Shown in pieces: positions 9,119 to 47,800 of a stretch of 49,022 nucleotides of DNA. The position numbers were made by a program, and so were the translations under genes. Under the pieces are notes generated by a model. That model saw only the letters and a list, made by a program, of their open reading frames with translations, was not told where the DNA came from and searched no databases. This stretch comes from a virus. Each line of letters opens with the position of its first letter. Position 1 is the first letter of the stretch. The DNA is taken from positions 1 to 49,022 of IMG/VR virus record IMGVR_UViG_3300005338_000015; one strand, 5' to 3'.

Positions 9119-9352
9119 GTGCAATTAAAAGACTTAGTACGTCCTATAGATCAGATGACTGACGATGAACTCAGGGAACGCCTCAGAGAAATTCGTCACC
9201 GTCGCACAGTAGTTCGTCCAGCACACCAGAAGAAGAAAGCTGCACCGGCAAAGAAAGCAGCGAAGGCAAAAGTAAGTAAAGTTGACGCCATGCTTAAGAG
9301 CATGACACCAGAACAAATCCAGCAACTGTTGAAAGACCTTGGAGAAGGCTAA
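9119..9352 (+). CDS. small basic protein with a Lys/Ala-rich segment
   Basis: 77 residues from the GTG at 9119 with CGGAG upstream; an upstream TTG would sit inside the terminator. N-terminal helix with DELRERLREIRHRR, a KKKAAPAKKAAKAK stretch like histone H1 tails, then a C-terminal helix MTPEQIQQLLKDL. Probably DNA-binding. It directly precedes the ParB-methyltransferase gene (TAATG overlap), perhaps a partner. Confidence 0.6.
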   Translation: MQLKDLVRPIDQMTDDELRERLREIRHRRTVVRPAHQKKKAAPAKKAAKAKVSKVDAMLKSMTPEQIQQLLKDLGEG

Positions 9353-10692
9353 TGACTGATGCAGCGGTAGAGCGGAAGGATAAGATGAAGTTGGTCAACT
9401 TGGCTGACATTATTGTAGGAGATAGATTCCGAAAAGACTTCGGGGACATGGATGAGTTTGTCGCCTCAATTAAAGAAAAGGGGATTATTCAACCTATTAC
9501 CGTAGATCAGCACCTTAACCTCCTTGCTGGCGGTCGTCGTTATGCTGGAGCGACTGCGGCAGGTCTTCACAAAATACCCTGCATTATTCGTGACTTTGTA
9601 GATGAGATTGACTCACGTGAGATTGAACTCATTGAGAACGTGTATCGCAAAGATTTCACGTGGCAGGAACGTGACTTGCTAGTTAAGAAGATTAATGACT
9701 TGTACAAAGCTAAAGACCCTGAATGGTCAGGTCGGGATACTGCCAAGCTCCTAGACAAGTCAGTCGGTGGTGTTTCTAACTCACTTCAACGTGCTGAATA
9801 CCTTGCAGTCATTCCTGAACTTCAAGAACTGAAAACTGCTGACGAAGCAAACAAGTTTATTAAGAAACTCGAAGGAGATATGGTAGTTGAGGAACTGCGC
9901 AAGCGTCAGAAAGCCTCAATGGAGAAGCCAACTACTGGAAGTGACTCCGCAACTGCACTGAAACGAATGTTAAAGATTGCTGATGGCAACTACAACATTG
10001 GCGATTGCTTTGAGGGAATGAAAGGGCTTAAGACAAATGGAAACATTACCTTTATCGAATGCGATCCGCCATATGGAATTGATCTATCAGATACCAAAGC
10101 GGGACGAGATTCAGTGGGAAGTACTGTTACAGGATATAAAGAAGTTCCTTCCGAAGAATATGAAAGTTTCCTTGGTCGTCTCACAAGTGAACTCTTTCGA
10201 GTGGCAAGCAAAGATTGTTGGATGGTTTTCTGGTTCGGACCCAGCTGGCACCAATCAGTCCTCAATTCGTTACGAGGAGCTGGATGGCAGGTAGATGAGA
10301 TTCCGGCAATCTGGGTTAAGGTAAGCGGACAAACTCAGCAGCCGCAGGTTCACTTGGCACGTAGTTACGAACCGTTCTTCGTCTGTAGAAAAGGTCAGCC
10401 AGTATTGAATAAGCCTGGACGTCTGAATACCTTTCAGTTCCCTGGCTGCCCGACTATGGGACCGAATGCAAAGTATCATCCAACCCAGCGTCCTGTTGAG
10501 TTGATTGAGGAGTTGCTAGAAACCTTCACTGTCGGTCAGCAGATTGTCTTCGTCCCTTTCCTTGGTAGTGGTGCAACACTTCGTGCTTGTTACAATAAGG
10601 GAGTGCTTGGCTACGGGTATGATTTGAACGGAACCTACAAAGATAAATTCATGCTTGCAGTTGAACAGGACAGTAGGAAGAATCTATCATGA
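9352..10692 (+). CDS. ParB-like domain fused to a DNA methyltransferase
   Basis: 446 residues in two domains. Residues ~14-150 are ParB/Srx-like: V-x-D-RFRKDFG, IQPITV, the GGRRYAGA box (60-67) and an HTH-like region (SGRDTAKLLDKSVGGVSNSL). Residues ~212-440 are an N6-adenine/N4-cytosine methyltransferase: DPPYG at 238-242 and, C-terminal to it, HPTQRPVELI and FLGSGAT (403-409), the order of the beta class. ParB-methylase fusions are known in phages; they methylate specific sites, often as protection from host restriction. The active-site residues look intact. Confidence 0.88.
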   Translation: MTDAAVERKDKMKLVNLADIIVGDRFRKDFGDMDEFVASIKEKGIIQPITVDQHLNLLAGGRRYAGATAAGLHKIPCIIRDFVDEIDSREIELIENVYRKDFTWQERDLLVKKINDLYKAKDPEWSGRDTAKLLDKSVGGVSNSLQRAEYLAVIPELQELKTADEANKFIKKLEGDMVVEELRKRQKASMEKPTTGSDSATALKRMLKIADGNYNIGDCFEGMKGLKTNGNITFIECDPPYGIDLSDTKAGRDSVGSTVTGYKEVPSEEYESFLGRLTSELFRVASKDCWMVFWFGPSWHQSVLNSLRGAGWQVDEIPAIWVKVSGQTQQPQVHLARSYEPFFVCRKGQPVLNKPGRLNTFQFPGCPTMGPNAKYHPTQRPVELIEELLETFTVGQQIVFVPFLGSGATLRACYNKGVLGYGYDLNGTYKDKFMLAVEQDSRKNLS

Positions 10693-10877: not shown

Positions 10878-11939
10878 ATGTTCCTCCCAGACACGATTCA
10901 AAAGAAGCGAGCTATCTCCCCCGCCGGAGATAAGAATGCTCGCATCTGCATAGTTGGAGACTTCACGGATAACTTTGACTTGGCCGCTGGTCGTCCCTTC
11001 AGTGGTCCTGCTGGTTCAGTTCTTGAAAGCTGCCTTCATCAGGCTGGTCTAATCAGGGCTGAATGCTACTTAACCAACGTAATTAAGACTCCACCCAGCG
11101 GAAGGATTCGTGACAAAAAGTGCGGTCCTAACGCTGAGTTCTTCAGACTGAATAACAATGGTAAGGGAACTTTCACCGAAGCCGGGATGCCGTGGGTAAC
11201 AGCGCTGCGTGAGGAGTTAAGTTCCGTCCATGCAAACATCTACGTTGCGGCGGGGCCTGCGGCCTTCACGGCGCTTTGCGCCGGCCGGAAGCTCTCCAAG
11301 TTCCGAGGCTACGTGCGGGAAAGCAGTGGGTTTGCACGGAATCCTGGCAGCCCAGAACTCAAGGTGATTCCGACCTTCTCGCCGGCTGACACAGTGCGGG
11401 GTATGTACACGAATAGGACGATCATTGCTATTGACTTGAAGAAGGCTAAGGCTGAGAGTGCTTATCCTGAAATCATAAGGCCTGTTCGTAACTTAGTTTA
11501 CAACTACAGTAATCTTGAAGAATGTCTTGCTTGGATGGAGGTACTGTATAATGCACCAGTACTTGCTTTCGATATCGAAGTGGTTAACTACGAAGTCGCC
11601 TGTATATCATTTAGCAATAGTCCAGACCTCGGGCTTGTAGTCCCCATTACTGATCATTGGACGGAAGAAGAGGAGGTCTACATCTGGAGAGGAATACAAA
11701 GACTGCTTGGCAATACTAAGAGCATTAAGGTTGCCCAAAACGCAATCTTTGATATTCATTTCCTCCTCACGAGTACGGGAATTGAAGTCAGAGGGGAAGT
11801 GCACGATACGATGGTCGGACATTCTGTGATGTTTACTGAGTTACAAAAAGGACTTGGCTTCCTTGGAAGTATTTATTGTGGGTCTCAGGCATACTGGAAA
11901 GACCTTGTTAAATTTGATGATGTGAAGGAGGATAGTTAA
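10878..11939 (+). CDS. UDG-like domain fused to the N-terminal part of a 3'-5' exonuclease (split DNA polymerase, first half)
   Basis: 353 residues. Residues ~20-190 have the fold pattern of family 4-type uracil-DNA glycosylases: GRPFSGPAGSVLESCLHQAGL, YLTNVIKTPP and PTFSPADTVRG. The catalytic GE-x-PG loop is GDFTD and the HPS loop is TFSP, so activity is doubtful. Residues ~228-330 hold DnaQ-type exonuclease motifs: Exo I FDIE (D232, E234) and Exo II NAIFDIHF (D292). The protein ends before Exo III, which is found in the polymerase gene at 12610. In related phages these parts occur in one long polymerase, so this looks like a split subunit. A short GC-rich patch spans about 11225-11320. Confidence 0.75.
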   Translation: MFLPDTIQKKRAISPAGDKNARICIVGDFTDNFDLAAGRPFSGPAGSVLESCLHQAGLIRAECYLTNVIKTPPSGRIRDKKCGPNAEFFRLNNNGKGTFTEAGMPWVTALREELSSVHANIYVAAGPAAFTALCAGRKLSKFRGYVRESSGFARNPGSPELKVIPTFSPADTVRGMYTNRTIIAIDLKKAKAESAYPEIIRPVRNLVYNYSNLEECLAWMEVLYNAPVLAFDIEVVNYEVACISFSNSPDLGLVVPITDHWTEEEEVYIWRGIQRLLGNTKSIKVAQNAIFDIHFLLTSTGIEVRGEVHDTMVGHSVMFTELQKGLGFLGSIYCGSQAYWKDLVKFDDVKEDS

Positions 11940-12176
11940 ATGGGTAATTCATATACTGTTCTTGAAGGCGATACAGACCTTTCTTTAGATGAAATGTCTT
12001 GTGTCTTTGATTTAACTGCAAATAGCAGTGATACAAACTTTACTATTGCAAAGAATTTAACACCTGAACAAGTAGTAGATATAGCTATTAAGATGATTCA
12101 CGCAGCAAGTTACTTTGTACATAATCCACAGGAACTTATGTATGATGCCTCAGATAGAGCGAGGAAGTATCCGTGA
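11940..12176 (+). CDS. hypothetical protein between the polymerase halves
   Basis: 78 residues; ATG 11940 directly follows the preceding TAA, with GAAGGAGGATAGTTAA upstream as ribosome site. Acidic N-terminal half (EGDTDLSLDEM), helical C-terminal half (VVDIAIKMIHAASYFV). Strong AT-rich codons. Unrelated to polymerase sequence; part of the three-gene insertion. Confidence 0.55.
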   Translation: MGNSYTVLEGDTDLSLDEMSCVFDLTANSSDTNFTIAKNLTPEQVVDIAIKMIHAASYFVHNPQELMYDASDRARKYP

Positions 12177-12388
12177 AAACCTTTGAATACGCAGCCCCTG
12201 AAACCAATGTGTTCTGTGCTAATAAGTTTGACAATGGAAACCTTGGGGACTTTGAAGTAGGCAAGTGGTACTTCGCTGATGCTAAGTGGAATGATTTCAC
12301 TGGTCCTTTTGACTCAAGGGAAGAAGCGGATCGTAGTTTTCAACAGTATGTTAATAACCTTCGGGCTTGCCCTGGGTGTGAGGAATAA
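12173..12388 (+). CDS. hypothetical protein between the polymerase halves
   Basis: 71 residues with a GTG start overlapping the preceding TGA. Pattern FEVGKWYFADAKW, then PFDSREEADRSFQQYV and a CPGCEE tail, typical of small phage proteins with a beta-hairpin and a 'F.sr.eAd..f..Y' helix. The terminal CxxC could bind metal. Function unknown. Confidence 0.55.
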   Translation: MKTFEYAAPETNVFCANKFDNGNLGDFEVGKWYFADAKWNDFTGPFDSREEADRSFQQYVNNLRACPGCEE

Positions 12389-12389
12389 T

Positions 12390-12620
12390 ATGCAGACTAA
12401 ACTTGGTTCCTTTGTTGAGTCCTGGGCTAACATTGCAATTGGATTCTTAGTTAGTTATGCAGCTAATATCTGGATTCTTCCTTTAATGCTTCATACAAAG
12501 ATTAGTTACAACAGTGCTTTTTGGGTTGGTGTAGTTTATACTGTAATTAGTTTGATTCGTAGTTATCTTCTACGTCGCTTGTTCAATAGGATTAAATTCG
12601 GGAACTACAATGCCCCTTGA
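12390..12620 (+). CDS. small membrane protein, DUF7220-like
   Basis: 76 residues; ATG 12390 with GAGGAATA upstream. Two hydrophobic segments (IAIGFLVSYAANIWILPLML and FWVGVVYTVISLIRSYLL) separated by a polar loop, ending in basic RRLFNRI. The order FVESWAN...IAIGF...ILP...SLIRSY-LRRLF matches a small phage membrane family. It overlaps the polymerase start by 11 bases, implying translational coupling. Confidence 0.65.
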   Translation: MQTKLGSFVESWANIAIGFLVSYAANIWILPLMLHTKISYNSAFWVGVVYTVISLIRSYLLRRLFNRIKFGNYNAP

Positions 12621-14133
12621 TCGTGACTTCCTTGAATACTCAGCCCTTGACTCTGCTTGCACTTTGGAGATTCATAATGCTTTCTGGGATGACTTAAGTC
12701 CTACCTTCTCCCGTGCTTATGAAATGACTCTTCGCATCTTCCCCGTGCTGATGTTCATGCAAACTAGGGGAATTAAAGTAAGCAAAGAACTTCTTGAGGA
12801 AACCAAAGCTGATGTTATCCGTACAGCCGCAGAGCGTCAACGCGAACTGGATGCCCTCATCGGTAGACCACTTAATGTCAGTAGCCCCAAACAATGCCAA
12901 GAATATTTTTATGGTGAACTGGGTATTACACCTTACCGCAACGGAGAAGGCAGGCCTACAGTTGACGACTTGGCCCTTCAAAGGCTCGTACGTGGTACTG
13001 TGGCACGACCAGGCCTCAGACAGGCTAAACTTGTACAGGATATTAGAGGCCTGCAGAAGCTATACGGAACTTATCTCGATCTTCAATTTGATGGAGATGG
13101 AAGGCTTAGGTGTTCGTTCAACCCTCGGGGTACTAAGTTTGGGCGTCTATCAAGTTCCAAGACTATCTTTGACACCGGGACTAACTTTCAGAACTTGCCT
13201 CAGGAGTTTAAGAAGTTTCTGGTTCCAGATGAAGGCTTTTGTTTTATTGAGGTGGATAAGAGGCAGGCCGAATGGGTAGTGGTTGCCTACGTTACTGCTG
13301 ATGCGAATATGATAGCGGCAGTTGAAGGTGGTATTGACGTACATACTTATACTGCTTGCCAGATGTTTAATGTGACTCCTGATGTGGTGAAGAAGGAACA
13401 TAAATTATGCGGTCAACTGACTGATGCAGACTCCATTAAGGAATTACGCATCAAGGAAGGTATGTACCCGCCAAGCAGTTGGCCTCGTGCTATGTCTCTT
13501 CGACAAAGCGGGAAGAAGTCTAATCATGGTCTAAACTATGATGAAGGCTACAAAGGCTTTGCCATGATTAATGAGATGGATGAGTCAGAGGCAAAGCGCA
13601 TTTACAATCTTTATCATCAAATCTATCCAGGAATTAAGCGTTGGTATGAAGCAGTTAAGTATCAACTTCAACGTGATCGTACACTGACTAATTGCTTTGG
13701 CAGATCAGTCCGCTTCCTTGGAGCATGGAATGATAAGCTTTGGAAATCTGCTTACTCAATGCTCCCTCAGTCTACTGTGGTCGACTCCCTGAATGAGGGC
13801 ATGGCTAAGATTTACGAAGATGAATGGTTGACACGAACCCTTAATGGTGATATACTGGCCCAAGTTCATGACTCAATCCTTATGCAGTTTCCAATCAGTG
13901 ATCTTGAGGATGAAGAGACGTTCAATAAACTGATTGGTAAGATCACACACTATACAAGCCCTGAACTGGAATACAATGGAAAGAGGTTTAAGATTGCAAG
14001 TGATTACAAGGTCGGTCTGAACTGGGGCGGTGCTAATGCTGAGCGTAATCCACAAGGTATGACAGAGATTTCCTCCCATGAGGAGTTCATGGCTGCTCTA
14101 AGGAATTGGCGAAATGTCAAGGGAACTGCGTAA
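12610..14133 (+). CDS. family A DNA polymerase, polymerase half of a split enzyme
   Basis: 507 residues. It begins with the exonuclease III motif (YSALDSA, Y10-D14), separated from Exo I/II in the gene at 10878. Then come the thumb signature LNVSSPKQCQEYF (~88-100) and palm motif A VDKRQAEW (D216, Q219, E221). O-helix motif B is R298-xxx-K302-xxx-H306-xxx-Y310 (RQSGKKSNHGLNY), and motif C is QVHDS (H420, D421). The polymerase residues are intact; the residue at the Pol I F762 position is His, which is unusual. It replicates the phage genome, presumably with the 353-residue partner supplying the rest of the proofreading site. Confidence 0.9.
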   Translation: MPLDRDFLEYSALDSACTLEIHNAFWDDLSPTFSRAYEMTLRIFPVLMFMQTRGIKVSKELLEETKADVIRTAAERQRELDALIGRPLNVSSPKQCQEYFYGELGITPYRNGEGRPTVDDLALQRLVRGTVARPGLRQAKLVQDIRGLQKLYGTYLDLQFDGDGRLRCSFNPRGTKFGRLSSSKTIFDTGTNFQNLPQEFKKFLVPDEGFCFIEVDKRQAEWVVVAYVTADANMIAAVEGGIDVHTYTACQMFNVTPDVVKKEHKLCGQLTDADSIKELRIKEGMYPPSSWPRAMSLRQSGKKSNHGLNYDEGYKGFAMINEMDESEAKRIYNLYHQIYPGIKRWYEAVKYQLQRDRTLTNCFGRSVRFLGAWNDKLWKSAYSMLPQSTVVDSLNEGMAKIYEDEWLTRTLNGDILAQVHDSILMQFPISDLEDEETFNKLIGKITHYTSPELEYNGKRFKIASDYKVGLNWGGANAERNPQGMTEISSHEEFMAALRNWRNVKGTA

Positions 14134-18211: not shown

Positions 18212-18547
18212 TTAATCAATTGCAGGGTCGAAGAGTGGTGAGACATAACCTGGCTTAGCACAACCTGGACCAGCGTAGCCTGGGTAAGCACTAAGGGAGT
18301 TCGGAGTACACATAGCAACAAACTGATTCGCCGGCATAGGCTGAGTCCAAGGAGGCGTCTGAACATCAGGAACTCCACGAGCAAAGTCCTGTGGCTGACG
18401 AGGCTCCCAGTGTTCAGGGCAAACGTAGTAACCTTGCCAGTGACGCTTCATCATGGACGCTTTTCGCTTCCGTCCACACTCAAAGCAGACTACATTCCAG
18501 TCGCCAAGTTTAAGAAAGTCCGCTCGACCTTTACCGGGACTAGTCAT
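18212..18547 (-). CDS. conserved virion-module protein with a zinc-binding motif
   Basis: 111 residues. FLKLGDWNVVCFECGRKRKA and YYVCPEHWEPR supply four Cys/His ligands. The following HWEPRQPQDFARGVPDVQTP resembles a motif I recall beside podovirus tail and ejection genes. C-terminal part Pro/Gly-rich. It probably assists assembly; its start overlaps the end of the giant ejection protein. Confidence 0.6.
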   Translation of the reverse strand: MTSPGKGRADFLKLGDWNVVCFECGRKRKASMMKRHWQGYYVCPEHWEPRQPQDFARGVPDVQTPPWTQPMPANQFVAMCTPNSLSAYPGYAGPGCAKPGYVSPLFDPAID

Positions 18548-21500
18548 GTTTCTTCTTCTTTGCGTAATGTTCAGCTAGGAAACGACCAACTACAGGGATT
18601 GAACTAAGCGCATGAGGATCACGATTCCACAAGTCATCCATAGCACGCCATGGGACTGGTGGAGCAATTACCTCACCGACAGTTTCAAATAGCTTACTCT
18701 TCTGACTTGAGGGCTTACCATTCTTCAGTTTATCAGGTCCAAAAGCCTGCTTTGAATTATACTCAGACCAGCCAAAAGTCTTAAGCATATTCATAGGAAT
18801 GTCAGCAGCACTAAAGGTGATTGGACGACCAAGGAGGAAATTAGCAATATCCTGACCAGCTACTCCGTTTAGTCCTAAGACAAGCCCAATGGCAGTAAGA
18901 TTGTATAGACCCCTTGCCCTTCTACCTTGCTTAATTAAGTTATAAGCATCCCGACGACTAACATCAAGCTGCTTAATCATGTAGCTCTTAAGCGCCAACA
19001 TGAGGCGACCATTAGGATTATCTGCGTGAAACTGTGAGAACTCAAACGCATCAATAGGATCAGAGCGAGAGAGCTCTAGGTAGGCAAGTGCCTTGGTCTG
19101 TTCACCAATTTCCTTTTGCTTCAGTTCATTGACTAACTTAGCAGTACGATCACCGAAGGACTTATAATACTTACCATAAAGAACTGCAACACCCTTCCTT
19201 GACTTAGCCAAGCGCTGAGCTTTAATAACCGCAGCATTAAGTTTAACATCTTTATCCACAAGATCACCGAACTTAAACAGACCCCATTTAAGTGCACCAC
19301 GAAGGAAACGTGCTGAGCGAGCAGTACCAACAAACTCCTCAGACATATGATCTGCAAGACCAAAGTCACGATGACTGAGTAGTTGCTTACCAGTAATCCT
19401 GCGAACGACTGCTTCAAGTGTTGGCCTGATCCCTTGAAGGTAAGTGGTGACAACTGGAGTGGTAATCTGAGCAGCGGCAGAGAGTGGATTACCAATGTAG
19501 CTAGCCATTGTATAATTCTTGAAATCTTGTAGTAGCTTATTCCCACCCTTCTCCGAGTTGATTAAGGTGCTCTTAATCATAGCAGTAACTTCAGGAACAT
19601 CATCAACGTTCAGATTACCTGCTTCAAGTTCCTTCTGAATATACTTACCAATAGAAGCATTAACGTCTGGGTAGACGATTCCATCTTCTTCCTTATTAAC
19701 AAGTTCCTTACCAAAGAACTTTGCAATCTCAATGTTCTTTGTTGCCTGAGCAATATAGCTATGATAAGCCTCAGCGAGGTTAGCGTAGTACTTTTGATAC
19801 TCATCAGGGATTCGCTCAAACTTACGTGCATGAGTATATCCAGCACGAACTGAAGTCGGGGCTTCCTGACGCATGAAGGACTTAATCGCATTGTCTATAA
19901 TGCTAGCTTCTTCAATGTCAGTAAGTGGACGTTGAGCGTTACGGATTGAATCTTCCTGCGCCTTGGCAAGCAAGCCTTTAATAGTGCTAGCATGAACCTT
20001 GCCAATCTCATTGAAGAGACCTTCCTTATCCTTAATGATACGAGGAAAGTATCCAGGCACTTCCTTCTTAATCATTCCAAGGGAGAATAGCTTATGCCCA
20101 GTGTGCTCGATGATTGCCTGCATTGACTTCCAGGAAGCTTTAAGTTCCTTATCTCCAATTGCGTCAAGGAGCTTATCAGTTACTTCGTTATTACCGTTCC
20201 TAATTTCATTGGACAGGACTTCCAGTTCATCTTTCTTCAGTCGGTGGACAGCATTAAGGAACGGTTGCCCAGCTGCAATTAGATCATGAGTTACAGTGTT
20301 GCGAACTCGAAAGTACTCTTTAATGCGGAAGTGAACTGCCTCACTCTTATTACGAACGCGAGTTGACATTACTCCAACTGTATGATCGACAGCGGAGAAG
20401 ATATCTCGGTTGTTCCTTCGCAGAATAAGGAGTGCCCCCGCACCAAGCAATGCTCCCCACTGACGATGATGAGGATCAAGGTAAGCACCAAGAGCAGCTC
20501 CGACGCCAGCAGTTGCAATACCTTTGAGGAGGCGTTGGTCTACAAAGCCTTGCTGACCTTTAGGCCCAACAGAGACTTCTCTAACAACCTTATCTACTTC
20601 TGCTTGAGTATAGAACTTCTTATCTCCAAACTCCTGTTTTAGTTTTTGTACAACTTCAGGCTTGTAATCAGAAGCTCTTTCAAGATCAACATTCTGCAAA
20701 TCTTCTACATTATCCCACTTACCATTTTTTACAAAGTCTTGTATGTAAGGAATATACTTGGCAGCAGGCTTAGCGTTACCTTTACCTTTGATTTGAGTGA
20801 TTTCAGTTGGGCCGCCATCACGGAAATGTTCAACCTCTATAGTAACATGACTCATACCATCCTTACTACGGAGAGAATAAATTCTAGCAGTACCATTCTT
20901 AATAGCCTCCCAACCACCAGTACCAACTCCGTAGTCTAGATGACCAGAGTCTCCAGATGCAGGAATCCAGTCAGGATGCGCTTTTCCACTACCAGGAAAT
21001 TCGTCACCAGCATCATCAGTAATGTAATGATTCTTTGAAACTGGCTCATACCCCCTAACCGAGTGTCCCATTACATCACTTTCTTGCGCAAACTCACCAG
21101 GCTTGGTTAGCTGAACCCACTTGGTGCCATCAGGATACTCCTTGTAAACAGGCATATCCTTCATTGACTGAACCTTGGCCTTAGCAGCCTTAGCAGCCAT
21201 CTCCTTATCCCAGGCGACGGTTTCTTTGACGGCACGGACTAGGTCGTACTGTTGAAGTTTTTCTACTGGAACATGCATAGTAAGGTAGTCACCTACATGC
21301 TTTAAATATGTATAGATAGGATTATAGTTAGTATCAAAAATTGGTTTATCTACATTATCAGGAATGCCAAGTTTTTTAGCTTGTATCCTAGCATTCTCTT
21401 CACCATAAACCTTTTTATAGTTATTACTATAATCAAAAGCATCTCCCCAAGTTTCTATTCCACCGACAACGCCAGGAATCTCTATATCTTTTAAAGGATC

Positions 21501-24500
21501 AGTTTCAGTGCCCGCATGCTTTGCAAGATAATTTTTCACAGCCTTAGTAGCCCATTCAACTCTTGGATGCGCATTACCTAAAGCCGGAACCATTAACTGC
21601 TCAGCTAAATCTAATTGAGTACTCTTAGTCCACTCTCCCTCAAATGGATTCCGAATAGCTCCCACCTGATTACCTCTCATTCCTCCATTACTTCCCCTAG
21701 TCAACCTTGCTCCCATCAAACCTACCAGTAATGCACCAGTAAGTGCAACAGGCAATCTCTTCTCCGGTGGCAATGTAGCAAGTGCAACAGTACCTCCAGC
21801 AGCAAGCATCATACCAACAAGCAAACGACGATCAACTTGACCTGACTGACGAATACGCTTTGCTCCATACCCCTTAGCAATGCTTTCCTCTATTTTATCC
21901 TTTGCGTAGCTAATTATCCGCTTAACCGTACCAAGCGGAATGTCTATTTCTTTTGCAATTTCTTCAAGTGGTTTAAGTTCAATCTGAGACTTAATAACAA
22001 CCTGACGCTCTTTTGAACTCAGCTTATTAATAGCATTAACCAGTTGAACATTAACCTCATCCCTAATTGCCACATTCTCTGGCGTATCCAGTTCAACTGC
22101 TGCATCTTCATAGGAAGGTGAACTGCCTGACTCAGCACGTGGCTTAAGTACAACATTACCTGACAGTGGCTTAGTCTCATCACCACCTTTGTTAGGCTGA
22201 TCCATACTTACAGTTTCAGGAGCACCTTTCGCTTCCCGAATTGCTTGCAGTCCTTCATTCCTAACGATTGAGTACAGCCAGGAACTGAATGCGGAATCAC
22301 CTTTGAATTTCGCTAGGTTCTCAGGATTGAATGCCTTAATGAAGGATTCAGCGACAATGTCACTAGGATCAATACCCAACTTTGGCCCAACATCACGAAC
22401 TAGCTTTGTAGCTACTCGTTCCATGTAGGCTTTATTATCATTGTATAGTTTAGCATAAGCAGCTTGATCGCCTTTCTTAGCCCTTTCCACAAGAGCTAAA
22501 TCCGCCTGTCGATCAGCTGCAATATCCTTAGCAGGTTTAAGTAAACCATTCTTAATCAACCGAGCAGCATCAGCACCCATTGAGAGGATATCCCCCTCAG
22601 GTGAGATTGCTCCTGACTGCTTCATGCGACGTAGTACTTCACCACCACCAGGAAGGAAGAGACCTGCCAAGCCACCAGCGATTGAACCCTTCAGCTTATT
22701 CTCATTATCTGACAGGCCGTAACCTGCTAGCACACCAGCCGAAACTGCTGCTCCACGAGCAAGCAACTTCCGATCAACACTTCCACCTTGGAGTTGACGA
22801 AGACGTACTTTATCTTCAAACGTCCTAGTACCTTCTGGCTTTGATTGAAGTGTTTGTAGCTCTTGCTGCTGGGCCTCGCTGAGCGGCTCGGTACCACCAG
22901 GCACTTCCGTGCTGACCGGCTGTTCCGCCGGGGCTTGCGGGGAATCGGGGCTTGCCGCGCCTTCCGGCTGCGGCTTCGCCGCTCCGGCTTCCGCCTCTGC
23001 ATCGGCAGTTTCGAGGATGGTACGGAGTTGTTCTTTCAGGTCAGTTGGTCTTGGAGTAACAGGACGGTCTGCTCTGCCGAAGATGGAATGACCTGCAACA
23101 CCAGGAACAAGTCCAACAGCAAATGCACTTCCAGTTGGACCTGCCTTAACTTCACCAGTACCAGTTGCTGCTTGCTGAGCAGCACTAAGGCCAGCATTAG
23201 CAGTACCAGTGGTTAATCCAGCGTCAACTGCGCTAATGATCTTGCCAAGTTTAGTTCCATCTTTAACTGCAATACCTAAGCGCTCAAGAGTGCCGCCTGG
23301 CATAGCCATGAGTTCAGGGTCATTAGCAAGTCCATTGGCAAACATAGCAGCAACGTGACTTGGGTCTTTGATTGCTTCATCTTTCATTCGACCAAGTTCC
23401 TGCCAAGTACTGGTTGCTTCCTTAAGACGTTGTGCTTTTGCAGCGGCGGCAGCGTTGACTGCAACTGTGGGGTACTTATCAGGATTGGCAAGGATTTCTT
23501 CTTGCTGCTTAATGCGAGTCTGCTGGTTAACGTAAGCCTGTTGAATTTCATCATCGTGAGCAATGGCATGAGCTGCTTGAGCAGGCAAGCTAAAGTTAGC
23601 AATGCGCTCAAATGGATTAATAGTCATCAAGTCAGACCAAGTGCTTCCTTGGTCCTGTCTACCCTTATCCGCAGGATTACCACCTACCTGATCAGTATCT
23701 TCAGGTGTAACGTACTGGACAATCTTACGTACTGGACCGAGGCGACCTCCTGAAGCATTAATGTTGATCTGCTTAGTGGCTTCCGCATCAGTCAGTTCAC
23801 GACCAGTATCTACCTCATGCCAAGTGGGCTTCGGTCCATTTGCTTGCTTCTTAATAAAAGCAGGAATGTCTTGGTAAATACCCTTATCAATTGGGTCAGT
23901 AATACGGGAAAGTGCCTCAAGTGGATGGGTAAGTGTATCCTTAATGAAAGCAGGGATTTGGGATTCTTCTTCCTTCGGCTTAACTGAAGTACCAAAGACG
24001 TCATTCATGCTGAGCAGCTTGGGTGCCGCTACTTTAGCAGGAGCTACTGTTCCAGTATTACCACTACCACCGCCAGTTCCTAACTGCTCACGAATCTTCG
24101 CAGCCCTTGCTTGAACGTCAGCAAGATATTGTGCGGTCTTAGGTCCATGCAACCTTTCATCTGGGCCAGCAAAGTGATTCTTAATTGCAAAGTCAACACC
24201 CTTATTCCTCATCTGCTGGGAGAAGTCTTGCATCGCTGCATCTGCTGCTTGAGCAGGATCAGTAGGATCAATACCATGAGCCTTAGCAGTCGCAGGGATG
24301 AACTGGTAAAGACCGCTTGCTCCGAACTCATTGTTTTTAGCCTGCAGATCATACCCACTTTCCTGCTGAGCAAGTGCAAAGGCATACTCATGAGGAACGC
24401 CCCACTTGTCTGCGGCGTCAGTGATAATCTTCACAATTCTTGGATCAGCAGGAAGGTTCCCCTTCGCCTTACTGACGACTGGTTCAAGTGTATCTGGATG

Positions 24501-24587
24501 AAGCACTGAATTGGAACGATCTGCAATTTGAATCTTCTTCACAGGGAGAGAAGAACCAAAGACATCTTCCATGCTGAGTAGTGCCAT
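18540..24587 (-). CDS. giant ejection protein: lytic transglycosylase + ECF sigma factor + membrane-hairpin repeats
   Basis: 2015 residues, third of three ejection-protein genes. An SLT transglycosylase domain lies at ~47-160 (ALAQQESGYD, Glu76; FGASGLYQF). A repeated motif LLSM-[EN]-DVFG-[ST]-S occurs at 4-14 and 191-201. Three related Gly-rich membrane hairpins beginning VD-[RQ]-[KR]-LL lie at ~601-650, 916-962 and 1347-1391. Residues ~694-787 are sigma region 2 (ERAKKGDQAAYAKLY, DPSDIVAESFIKAF, FSSWLYSIVRNEGL). Residues ~846-906 are sigma region 4 (LSSKERQVVIKSQIELKPLE, IDIPLGTVKRI). Residues ~1237-1287 (YSLRSKDGMSHVTIEV, ITQIKGKGN) resemble a domain of polyvalent phage proteins. The C-terminal ~600 residues are helical with a hydrophobic stretch near 1896-1920. 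It probably crosses the host envelope with the DNA and delivers the sigma factor. Confidence 0.85.
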   Translation of the reverse strand: MALLSMEDVFGSSLPVKKIQIADRSNSVLHPDTLEPVVSKAKGNLPADPRIVKIITDAADKWGVPHEYAFALAQQESGYDLQAKNNEFGASGLYQFIPATAKAHGIDPTDPAQAADAAMQDFSQQMRNKGVDFAIKNHFAGPDERLHGPKTAQYLADVQARAAKIREQLGTGGGSGNTGTVAPAKVAAPKLLSMNDVFGTSVKPKEEESQIPAFIKDTLTHPLEALSRITDPIDKGIYQDIPAFIKKQANGPKPTWHEVDTGRELTDAEATKQININASGGRLGPVRKIVQYVTPEDTDQVGGNPADKGRQDQGSTWSDLMTINPFERIANFSLPAQAAHAIAHDDEIQQAYVNQQTRIKQQEEILANPDKYPTVAVNAAAAAKAQRLKEATSTWQELGRMKDEAIKDPSHVAAMFANGLANDPELMAMPGGTLERLGIAVKDGTKLGKIISAVDAGLTTGTANAGLSAAQQAATGTGEVKAGPTGSAFAVGLVPGVAGHSIFGRADRPVTPRPTDLKEQLRTILETADAEAEAGAAKPQPEGAASPDSPQAPAEQPVSTEVPGGTEPLSEAQQQELQTLQSKPEGTRTFEDKVRLRQLQGGSVDRKLLARGAAVSAGVLAGYGLSDNENKLKGSIAGGLAGLFLPGGGEVLRRMKQSGAISPEGDILSMGADAARLIKNGLLKPAKDIAADRQADLALVERAKKGDQAAYAKLYNDNKAYMERVATKLVRDVGPKLGIDPSDIVAESFIKAFNPENLAKFKGDSAFSSWLYSIVRNEGLQAIREAKGAPETVSMDQPNKGGDETKPLSGNVVLKPRAESGSSPSYEDAAVELDTPENVAIRDEVNVQLVNAINKLSSKERQVVIKSQIELKPLEEIAKEIDIPLGTVKRIISYAKDKIEESIAKGYGAKRIRQSGQVDRRLLVGMMLAAGGTVALATLPPEKRLPVALTGALLVGLMGARLTRGSNGGMRGNQVGAIRNPFEGEWTKSTQLDLAEQLMVPALGNAHPRVEWATKAVKNYLAKHAGTETDPLKDIEIPGVVGGIETWGDAFDYSNNYKKVYGEENARIQAKKLGIPDNVDKPIFDTNYNPIYTYLKHVGDYLTMHVPVEKLQQYDLVRAVKETVAWDKEMAAKAAKAKVQSMKDMPVYKEYPDGTKWVQLTKPGEFAQESDVMGHSVRGYEPVSKNHYITDDAGDEFPGSGKAHPDWIPASGDSGHLDYGVGTGGWEAIKNGTARIYSLRSKDGMSHVTIEVEHFRDGGPTEITQIKGKGNAKPAAKYIPYIQDFVKNGKWDNVEDLQNVDLERASDYKPEVVQKLKQEFGDKKFYTQAEVDKVVREVSVGPKGQQGFVDQRLLKGIATAGVGAALGAYLDPHHRQWGALLGAGALLILRRNNRDIFSAVDHTVGVMSTRVRNKSEAVHFRIKEYFRVRNTVTHDLIAAGQPFLNAVHRLKKDELEVLSNEIRNGNNEVTDKLLDAIGDKELKASWKSMQAIIEHTGHKLFSLGMIKKEVPGYFPRIIKDKEGLFNEIGKVHASTIKGLLAKAQEDSIRNAQRPLTDIEEASIIDNAIKSFMRQEAPTSVRAGYTHARKFERIPDEYQKYYANLAEAYHSYIAQATKNIEIAKFFGKELVNKEEDGIVYPDVNASIGKYIQKELEAGNLNVDDVPEVTAMIKSTLINSEKGGNKLLQDFKNYTMASYIGNPLSAAAQITTPVVTTYLQGIRPTLEAVVRRITGKQLLSHRDFGLADHMSEEFVGTARSARFLRGALKWGLFKFGDLVDKDVKLNAAVIKAQRLAKSRKGVAVLYGKYYKSFGDRTAKLVNELKQKEIGEQTKALAYLELSRSDPIDAFEFSQFHADNPNGRLMLALKSYMIKQLDVSRRDAYNLIKQGRRARGLYNLTAIGLVLGLNGVAGQDIANFLLGRPITFSAADIPMNMLKTFGWSEYNSKQAFGPDKLKNGKPSSQKSKLFETVGEVIAPPVPWRAMDDLWNRDPHALSSIPVVGRFLAEHYAKKKKHD

Positions 24588-25820: not shown

Positions 25821-26390
25821 TTACCAGCCCCAATTACCGCCACCAGTATTTTGTGCTGGAATACTAGATGTGCTATTACTATCAGCAGGCTTATTAAAGA
25901 TGGTGTTCGCCAAGTTAACTGCATTATTCGCCACACCAGCAATGCTACTCAAGTACGAGTTATTCGCATCAGTAGCTGCCGCAGTATTAGCTGGATTACC
26001 TCCAGGCTGATAATTAACACCTGCTTCTGCCGCAAGGTTATTAAAGGCCTGCTGATAGGACTGTCCACCTGCTTCAGCTGCTGCAACAATAGCATTACCT
26101 GAACCTGTATAGCCCTGACTGGCAATTAGTCTTGCCGCAGCAATTTGCCTGGCCTTATATTCAGCTGTCCCAGCAATACTGCTTGGATCATTCTGCAATG
26201 CTCTTAGTTTCTCCGCAGCTTCCTTACGATACGGTCCATAAGGATCACTTGCAGCCTGAGACTTCTGCGCTGCCTTCGCCCTCTTATTAGCAGAGTTAGA
26301 AGCCAGAAGTGAACCTACTAATCCAATAGCAGCTCCAATCCAACCACCTTGTTTCCTGGGACTACGAGGTCCTGAGTTACGAATTGACAT
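25821..26390 (-). CDS. internal virion (ejection) protein, first of three
   Basis: 189 residues. A basic N-terminus is followed by a hydrophobic glycine-containing helix (WIGAAIGLVGSLLASNSANK), then an Ala-rich helical domain (EAAEKLRALQNDPSSIAGTA, LIASQGYTGSGNAIVAAAEA) and a low-complexity Asn/Thr/Gly tail. This matches P22 gp7- and T7 gp14-type proteins, the first to insert in the outer membrane during ejection. Confidence 0.7.
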   Translation of the reverse strand: MSIRNSGPRSPRKQGGWIGAAIGLVGSLLASNSANKRAKAAQKSQAASDPYGPYRKEAAEKLRALQNDPSSIAGTAEYKARQIAAARLIASQGYTGSGNAIVAAAEAGGQSYQQAFNNLAAEAGVNYQPGGNPANTAAATDANNSYLSSIAGVANNAVNLANTIFNKPADSNSTSSIPAQNTGGGNWGW

Positions 26391-44506: not shown

Positions 44507-44844
44507 CGGTTCCAATGGACTAGAAAACGTGGTTATACTTAGGAGTTCAAACTTATGCGCGGGTAGAAAATTGCCTTTCACCACAGGGGCCAAGTTGAAA
44601 ATTTCCCCCTACCCGGCCTATTTTTTCATAGCCAAAAGCTATGAGGGTGGGGTACGGGTGATGTAGGTAAGTAGCACACTATTAAACCAATTCACTATCA
44701 GCATGTGCACTTTCACAAAGATGAACGTCATTGCGGTCGATAGTATGAAATTGGGCGAAAATAATTTGAACCATTACCACACTTACGCATCCAATGTAAT
44801 GTAACCAATGGGGTTACAGCACAATGACCACAACGGAGATGACA
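44507..44844. other. divergent control region between leftward and rightward blocks
   Basis: About 340 bases without a gene. It holds TATACT (44534-44539) as a weak rightward -10, and a 7-bp hairpin TCATAGC/GCTATGA (44626-44632, 44638-44644) with outer pairing of CCCCTACCC and GGGTGGGG. The spaced motif at 44758-44795 precedes the first rightward gene. The rest shows no further signal I can support. Confidence 0.5.
44758..44795 (+). promoter_or_regulatory. candidate early promoter motif, copy 1
   Basis: AAAATAAT, TTGAACCATT (44766-44775), 11 bases, GCATCCAAT (44787-44795), followed by CAATGGGGTT. The same spaced motif occurs at 46981-47018. The GAACC in the first half resembles ECF -35 elements. 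Upstream of the first right-arm gene. Confidence 0.55.
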
Positions 44845-45156
44845 ATGGAAACCAAGAAAGAAGTCAGCACCAAAGTCCGCAAAGACGCGGAAGAAGCGAT
44901 TAAGACCAACCTCACAATCAATTGGGACGATATGAGTCCTGAGGACATCCGTGACCTGGCTCAGGCCGCACTGATCGTCAAGTTACAAGGCCAATGGCGT
45001 AACAACGGCATCCCGACTGAATGCACTGTTAAGGCCGCAGATCACAAAGTTGGCGTGCGAGTGAAGGATACGCGCACTCCCCTGGAGAAGGCACTGGCTG
45101 CTCTGTCTGCCCTTCCGGCTGACCAACGTGCTGCTGCGCTGGCGAAGTATCAGTAA
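44845..45156 (+). CDS. hypothetical protein, paralog of the gene at 47453
   Basis: 103 residues from ATG 44845, chosen for GGAG six bases upstream; an ATG at 44824 lacks a site. Core NLTINWDDMSPEDIRDLAQA, LIVKLQGQWRNNGI and the tail ALSALPADQRAAALAKY match, position by position, the protein at 47453 (LTIDWSGISEEQLRVLA, ML-ALSPQEREQLL). First rightward gene. Function unknown; possibly an early host-interaction protein. Confidence 0.6.
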   Translation: METKKEVSTKVRKDAEEAIKTNLTINWDDMSPEDIRDLAQAALIVKLQGQWRNNGIPTECTVKAADHKVGVRVKDTRTPLEKALAALSALPADQRAAALAKYQ

Positions 45157-46743: not shown

Positions 46744-46982
46744 ATAAACCCACTGTACCAGAAATACTTAATATGTGTTTGTATCAGATAGAACAGACAC
46801 CTATTAGTGCTTTACCTAATAGTGTGAAAGCAGAACTTAAAATGCTAATTGAGCATATGGGAAGATTAGTTGATATAGGAGAAGAAGAAACCATTAGTAT
46901 AAAGTTTGTAGCTAAAGTACTTCATAGTGTTACTGATGAACTATACCAACAACGCTTGACGTCACCTGCAAAAACTGCGTAA
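46740..46982 (+). CDS. small helical protein
   Basis: 80 residues from ATG 46740 (overlap with preceding TGA). Helices TVPEILNMCLYQIEQTPISA and SVKAELKMLIEHMGRLVDIG. Its TAA at 46980-46982 overlaps the start of the second motif copy. Function unknown. Confidence 0.5.
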   Translation: MNKPTVPEILNMCLYQIEQTPISALPNSVKAELKMLIEHMGRLVDIGEEETISIKFVAKVLHSVTDELYQQRLTSPAKTA

Positions 46983-47018
46983 AATAAATTGAACCATTGG
47001 CTTAAATTTGCATCCAAT
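46981..47018 (+). promoter_or_regulatory. candidate early promoter motif, copy 2
   Basis: AAAATAAA, TTGAACCATT (46989-46998), 11 bases, GCATCCAAT (47010-47018), then CAATGGGATT; the spacing between the two conserved boxes is identical to copy 1 at 44758. Located 38 bases before the gene at 47056. Confidence 0.55.
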
Positions 47019-47273: not shown

Positions 47274-47456
47274 ATGGAACTCAAAGACATTCCAGTTGAT
47301 GTAAGAAGTGCCTTGTACAGTCGTGGATTTGCTGAGGCTGATATTCTCAAGATGTCTCCCTTCAGTATGTTCCATAACTTCTGCGAATGGGAAGGTTTGA
47401 TTAACTGGAGTGATACCCTCTGGAACACAGTTCAGCAACTGGAACAACTCAAGTGA
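47274..47456 (+). CDS. small hypothetical protein
   Basis: 60 residues, ATG 47274 two bases after the previous stop. Features: LKDIPVDVRSALYSRGFAEA DILKM and MFHNFCEWEGLINWSDTLWN. It resembles a short helical 'SP.e.l..fcewEGl..W...lw..i' protein seen in some phages. Overlaps the next GTG start. Confidence 0.5.
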   Translation: MELKDIPVDVRSALYSRGFAEADILKMSPFSMFHNFCEWEGLINWSDTLWNTVQQLEQLK

Positions 47457-47800
47457 TCGACGTCCTGAACATACTTACCTGTCGCAGTAAAGGTCAAGGT
47501 CATCAGAAGACTGTCCTGACTATTGACTGGTCTGGTATTAGTGAGGAGCAGTTACGTGTCCTTGCACGAAGTGCTATCATTCACTCACTTCAACACCTAT
47601 ACCGTCAGCCACTTCACAGTGTTCCAGAGGAACACGTGGTTAAAGCAGTTGACTTCGTGAAGGGTGAGTTGCACGAAGTACTAATTGACCGGCCAAAACC
47701 AGTTAGGCAGCAACTGAAGGGAGCGATGGAAACTAAACTGGAACAGATGCTTGCTGCACTGAGTCCACAGGAAAGGGAACAGTTGTTGGGTGAATTATAA
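47453..47800 (+). CDS. hypothetical protein, paralog of the gene at 44845
   Basis: 115 residues with a GTG start overlapping the preceding TGA. LTIDWSGISEEQLRVLARSA, IHSLQHLYRQ, VVKAVDF and MLAALSPQEREQLL align with the first right-arm protein (and more loosely with the one at 4469). The repeated family in early positions suggests a shared, perhaps oligomeric, role that is still unknown. Confidence 0.6.
   Translation: MIDVLNILTCRSKGQGHQKTVLTIDWSGISEEQLRVLARSAIIHSLQHLYRQPLHSVPEEHVVKAVDFVKGELHEVLIDRPKPVRQQLKGAMETKLEQMLAALSPQEREQLLGEL

Follow-up and report, generated by a model that had tools for sequence, protein, structure and literature searches.

A sigma-E-like sigma factor inside a giant ejection-type phage protein, with candidate cognate promoters in related genomes

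What would a sigma factor do inside a phage protein of the kind that is ejected with the genome? The question is raised by a 49,022-nucleotide viral sequence (IMG/VR record IMGVR_UViG_3300005338_000015, positions 1 to 49,022; hereafter the window) that codes for the head-closure, portal, terminase and capsid proteins of a tailed phage. An initial annotation, made from the letters alone, had placed both an N-terminal lytic transglycosylase and a full ECF-type sigma factor within one protein of 2015 residues, and had proposed that the protein enters the host with the DNA and directs transcription of the first phage genes. The open reading frame at 18540-24587 is uninterrupted, and translation shows that minus-strand positions 21870-22508 correspond exactly to its residues 694-906; the plus strand over the same interval contains no open frame. 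The features of this region are as follows.

18540..24587, minus strand: giant ejection-type (internal core) protein, 2015 aa (ORF, Pfam, NCBIfam, local profiles, fold match)
24078..24452, minus strand: lytic transglycosylase (SLT) domain, aa ~46-170 (PF01464, 37.7 bits)
22641..22793, minus strand: glycine-rich hairpin 1, aa 599-649 (local profile; hydropathy peak at 608-626)
22227..22508, minus strand: sigma region 2, aa ~694-787 (Pfam, TIGR02937, profile, model)
22053..22226, minus strand: linker between the sigma domains, aa 788-845 (low-confidence or disordered in the model)
21870..22052, minus strand: sigma region 4, aa ~846-906, with recognition helix GTVKRIISYAKDKI (Pfam, TIGR02937, alignment)
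21702..21851, minus strand: glycine-rich hairpin 2, aa 913-962 (local profile; hydropathy maximum of the whole protein)
20679..21557, minus strand: PcfJ-like cargo, aa 1011-1303 (tblastn to a PcfJ-like protein of phage DSL-LC04; local profile)
20433..20555, minus strand: glycine-rich hairpin 3, aa 1345-1385 (local profile)
18570..20393, minus strand: C-terminal carrier module, aa 1399-2006 (fold match, local profile, viral contig search)
24626..25807, minus strand: 393-aa protein directly upstream, probable second ejection protein (T7 gp15 position, from gene order)
25821..26390, minus strand: 189-aa protein, probable third ejection protein (T7 gp14 position, from gene order)

Profile searches bear out the sigma assignment. 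The NCBIfam model TIGR02937 (sigma70-ECF) matches residues 710-901 with 80 bits (E=1.5e-22; curated cut-off 42.9 bits), a significant hit to the sigma-70 family. Region 4, annotated at residues ~846-906, is recovered by the Pfam families Sigma70_r4 (33.6 bits, cut-off 24.1) and Sigma70_r4_2 (31.9 bits, cut-off 25.7). Sigma70_r2 reaches 23.2 bits, 0.8 bit below its cut-off of 24; region 2, annotated at ~694-787, agrees with the TIGR02937 match and with a profile built from 19 such sigma domains, which finds E. coli sigma-E (1or7) at E=4e-40 with both domains covered. In the relatives L144, L150 and L152, Pfam regions 2 and 4 are both above cut-off, and phage sigma factors rank first when the window sigma region is searched against PHROGs. 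The annotated identity required sigma2 and sigma4 folds, and an AlphaFold model contains both as helical domains, mostly at pLDDT >85, with a disordered linker between them. Its best match among solved structures is 6jbq, the E. coli sigma-E initiation complex (probability 1.00), and sigma2 alone compares with 2map at a TMt of 0.79. The linker had been described as acidic; it does separate the two domains, but its acidity is moderate (13 acidic and 7 basic among 62 residues). The layout is that of an ECF factor, with regions 2 and 4 present and regions 1.1 and 3 absent. Two segments, DIVAESFIKAF and FKGDSAFSSWL, align to RpoE and fit the conserved core-binding and -10 reading motifs against which they were tested (D-I/V-x-x-E-x-F-I-K-A-F and F-R/K-G-D-S-x-F-x-T/S-W-L). 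A six-frame scan of the window found no second sigma domain. Residues ~694-906 are a complete two-domain ECF sigma factor.

The surrounding protein resembles the internal core proteins of T7-like virions. From the N terminus, its order is SLT, hairpin, sigma, hairpin, PcfJ-like domain, hairpin and a T7 gp16-like C-terminal module. The PF01464 match spans residues 55-127 and upholds the annotated transglycosylase; homologues of the PcfJ-like cargo score above the PF14284 cut-off. With SLT, sigma and PcfJ-like domains the protein combines several distinct effector domains, as polyvalent proteins do. The C-terminal ~610 residues are common to >140 viral contigs, and are similar in predicted fold to internal virion protein D, Bordetella phage BB8 internal protein D, the internal virion protein of Vibrio phage VP2 and the internal core protein of Ralstonia phage RSB3, along with several proteins annotated as large polyvalent; matches to the named internal virion proteins have a probability of 1.00 at a TMq of just 0.4-0.5. 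Solved structures in the PDB gave no significant match to this module. Two relatives (L206 and L187) match PHROG 342, an internal virion protein with an endolysin domain. Relatives have similar-sized genes at the place of the 393-aa gene; the 189-aa protein has no match in PHROGs. On sequence and fold comparison, the 2015-residue protein is most likely a core protein that is ejected, in third place of what looks like a gp14-gp15-gp16-like set.

Elsewhere in the window, at 9352-10692, a DNA methyltransferase is fused to a ParB-like domain. DNA polymerase I is apparently split at 10878-14133, where two ORFs match parts 476-797 and 802-1254 of PHROG 17 and a small ORF (phrog_4276) lies between them; the insertion is perhaps a homing element or intron.

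Does the arrangement occur more than once? A direct search of viral contigs with the whole window protein gave no match, and relatives were found through the portal protein and through the C-terminal module. By TIGR02937, the giant ORF contains a sigma domain in G008, G014, G015 and G017 and in 15 of 50 further records; local profiles add three, and one more comes from a contig of phage size in a Pseudomonadota MAG. With the window this makes 24 records (23 further) from many separate metagenomes, a count that includes some near-duplicates. A chance fusion or assembly artefact is ruled out by the same arrangement in many independent assemblies. The MAG contig (REEB109 contig 244, comprising L275, L273 and L274; 44519 b) has an ejection ORF with sigma, bears an end repeat of 16 bases and comes from a genome bin labelled Pseudomonadota.

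The position of the sigma domain within the carrier varies among these records. In the window it precedes the PcfJ-like domain; in G008, G014, L148, L171 and L211 it follows it, and G015, G017 and others carry sigma without other cargo. The closest relative, L144 (61% in the C-terminal module), combines sigma with LPD23 and a metallopeptidase-like domain (DUF6782). In four records and the MAG contig, the C-terminal module fused to sigma is a different one, and in G081 and G097, which are without the GGAACTT motif described below, a free sigma gene of ~210 aa takes the place of the fusion. In most records, local profiles place glycine-rich hairpins on either side of sigma. Hairpins in L144, L138, L139 and other relatives also bound PcfJ-like or LPD23 plus metallopeptidase cargo. 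The refined picture that these comparisons suggest is of a set of interchangeable cargo cassettes (sigma, PcfJ-like, LPD23 plus metallopeptidase) parted by glycine-rich hairpins. The hairpins that flank sigma probably keep the cassettes apart, and may also fix them to or within the inner membrane.

Selection on the embedded domain was gauged from dN/dS in five pairs of measurable divergence, compared with the undivided whole protein, plus a sixth pair (L210/G015). Sigma values of 0.009-0.084 stand against 0.04-0.238 for the whole protein, with sigma lower in every divergent pair, and the C-terminal module exceeds sigma in each pair where both were measured. By this measure the sigma domain is under strong purifying selection. 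A functional ECF (sigma-E-like) sigma factor is the best explanation of the embedded domain, judged from sequence and model.

When intergenic DNA of the sigma-carrying relatives was screened for enriched spaced word pairs, with no preset motif, GGAA/GAAC followed by GTCT emerged. The full site in the relatives is GGAACTT-N15-GTCTAA with an AT-rich stretch upstream, which we take to be the cellular sigma-E promoter type. Counted from GGAAC, the spacer in eight genomes is N17 in 38 copies, N18 in 2 and N13 in 1, with no other spacer from 10 to 25; a weight-matrix scan of these eight genomes gives 3 to 8 matches in each against 0 or 1 in shuffled sequence. The strict motif is present in 12 of 22 sigma-carrying records (the window excluded) against 0 of 26 that lack sigma (Fisher p=9e-6, an optimistic value as records within a clade are not independent). 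Many of the motif-less sigma-carrying records are fragments; G051, which carries sigma on 44.5 kb, has no detectable motif. Candidate cognate promoters of ECF type (-35 GAAC, -10 GTC, fixed spacing) thus appear to accompany sigma, and the case is strong in the relatives.

Such sites might be read instead by a host factor of the sigma-E type, activated by envelope damage at infection, leaving the embedded domain as a decoy for core RNA polymerase or in some other role. The motif's presumed identity with the cellular type would suit this, as would ECF-type promoter look-alikes in G002 (37520, 40657) and G079 (13375), in which neither profile nor Pfam region 4 detects a sigma domain. We regard it as improbable: the strict motif is confined to sigma carriers as given above, and both region 2 and the recognition helix of region 4 are kept as in an active sigma factor. 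Motif-carrying records share the recognition-helix residues of E. coli sigma-E (GTVRSRxxRAK), whereas several sigma-carrying records with a diverged helix are also without the GGAACTT motif.

The placement of the sites bears on when the factor would act. Of 48 copies, 38 lie on the strand opposite the ejection gene, the early strand, with a cluster where the early region starts in G008 and G017. In several relatives a copy precedes the gene for the terminase small subunit and a second one immediately follows the ejection gene; part of the sigma activity may therefore be late and take place in the producing cell. Taken further, a working sigma could act there altogether, with the late-made core protein or a processed fragment activating further phage genes before packaging, and with fusion to a virion protein setting timing or dosage and not delivery. 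The ejection gene does sit in the structural cluster, and known phage ECF-type sigma factors, for example that of phiEco32, serve middle and late genes (PMC9965538). The predominance of early-strand copies near the start of the early region makes this account rather unlikely, and a factor needed only late would not have to stay in the ejected protein across such differing architectures.

In the window itself the recognition helix reads GTVKRIISYAK, and the candidate promoters also differ. The GGAACTT motif was rejected as a window promoter, having a single match, within a gene; the frequent word TTTGAACAC was rejected too, as it proved to be a palindromic repeat. Comparison with relatives identifies a candidate variant promoter, TTGAAC-N17-ATCCAAT, at two sites (AAAATAAnTTGAAC-N17-ATCCAAT), both intergenic, on the early strand and with the -35/-10 spacing of the relatives.

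44758..44795, plus strand: candidate ECF-type promoter 1, AAAATAATTTGAAC-N17-ATCCAAT (comparison with relatives)
46981..47018, plus strand: candidate ECF-type promoter 2, AAAATAAATTGAAC-N17-ATCCAAT (comparison with relatives)
44824..45156, plus strand: first early gene, 110 aa, downstream of promoter 1

The start predicted for promoter 1 falls 23 nt upstream of the first early gene (44824), which has a paralogue at 47453-47800 (41% identity). At up to 3 mismatches the window holds 2 variant sites against 0.03 expected, a merely descriptive figure as the pattern was derived from these sites. An unbiased fixed-spacing search within the window, G051 and G093, each alone, did not rise above shuffled sequence, so the window promoters rest on the comparison with relatives. 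The stretch upstream of the window sites is identical to one in G073 (GCGAAAATAATT), and G093 and the MAG REEB109 phage contig have the same layout with two TTGAAC-type sites. The divergence of the window helix is consistent with a shifted promoter preference; in G093, however, a TTGAAC-type site goes with a retained helix GTIRSRLNRGR, which shows that helix and motif lack a one-to-one correspondence.

A further repeat, the palindrome TGTTCAAAWTTTGAACA (extended form TAAGTGGTGTTCAAATTTGAACACCACTTA), has about ten window copies at gene boundaries (3794, 8560, 15577, 24611, 30551, 33285, 39553, 43398, 45601 and 47814), one of them just before the start of the ejection gene; it looks like an operator or repressor-type site.

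Sequence and structural modelling support the sigma fold, the carrier fold, their recurrence, the constraint on sigma, the promoter motif itself and the link between motif and sigma. The account that we consider quite probable is that an injected ECF sigma factor, carried as cargo of a T7 gp16-like core protein, steers host RNA polymerase to the phage's early promoters. The core protein would be made late with its sigma domain, packed into the virion head and pushed with the DNA into the next host, where the sigma part would refold in the cytoplasm, bind host core RNA polymerase and lead it to the small number of ECF-type promoters that the entering DNA carries, most of them where the early region begins. 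The steps that we infer are packaging, delivery, cytoplasmic refolding and the early time of action. The initial annotation had seen no phage RNA polymerase gene, and PHROGs likewise finds none among the 20 larger window proteins scanned; as the window protein carries sigma alone, the host core polymerase must be used. The hydrophobic, glycine-rich hairpins on both sides of sigma raise another use for such a complex, in which a membrane-held sigma recruits host polymerase to the leading DNA end and transcription pulls the genome in, with gene regulation secondary. Transcription-driven genome entry by E. coli polymerase is established in T7 and offers a precedent. Several dispersed promoters favour a regulon over a single entry motor, and we give this idea very little weight beside early-promoter control by an injected factor.

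Several known systems share parts of this design. T7 gp16 (internal virion protein D) likewise has an N-terminal SLT domain, a similar C-terminal fold and the last place in an apparent three-gene ejection cluster, but is without sigma or PcfJ cargo and has very low sequence identity to the window protein. In phage N4, as inferred here, a component of transcription is delivered in a giant virion-carried protein and sets early transcription going; N4, however, injects a whole single-subunit polymerase. Polyvalent proteins are similarly large, multidomain phage proteins with exchangeable effector domains, and the relatives here carry LPD23, PcfJ and metallopeptidase-like modules; the paper that describes the class does not mention sigma and describes no sigma cargo domain (Iyer et al. 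2017, PMC5512222). The ECF-type sigma factor of phiEco32 redirects host RNA polymerase to phage promoters, as proposed here, but is a free protein made after infection that acts on middle and late genes (PMC9965538). E. coli RpoE and its ECF sigma-E group have the same two-domain fold, and their recognition helix and promoter type are shared by the relatives; RpoE is free, soluble and held by an anti-sigma factor, whereas the phage domain forms part of a virion-type protein. The initial annotation knew of no described injected sigma factor, and searches of an open-access library for injected or virion sigma factors and related polyvalent proteins found no precedent; most subscription papers lie outside that scope, and a report elsewhere is possible.

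Injected takeover of transcription is known in two forms, by a whole polymerase (N4, phiKZ) or by enzymes that modify the host polymerase (T4 Alt). A sigma factor that is conserved, recurs within an ejection-type protein and has matching promoters is well supported by sequence as a putative new form of it. On balance we think it likely that host transcription is taken over, in a family of tailed phages, by means of an ECF sigma factor that the virion delivers and of early promoters that match it, with exchangeable hairpin-bounded cassettes and with sigma and promoter sequences changing together between lineages. If this is true, packaging a sigma factor would add a third route at far lower cost, with ~200 residues that reuse the host enzyme. 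The promoters would be a readable target code, making predictions from sequence possible for uncultured phages, and the hairpin-bounded cassettes may offer a route to other injected effectors.
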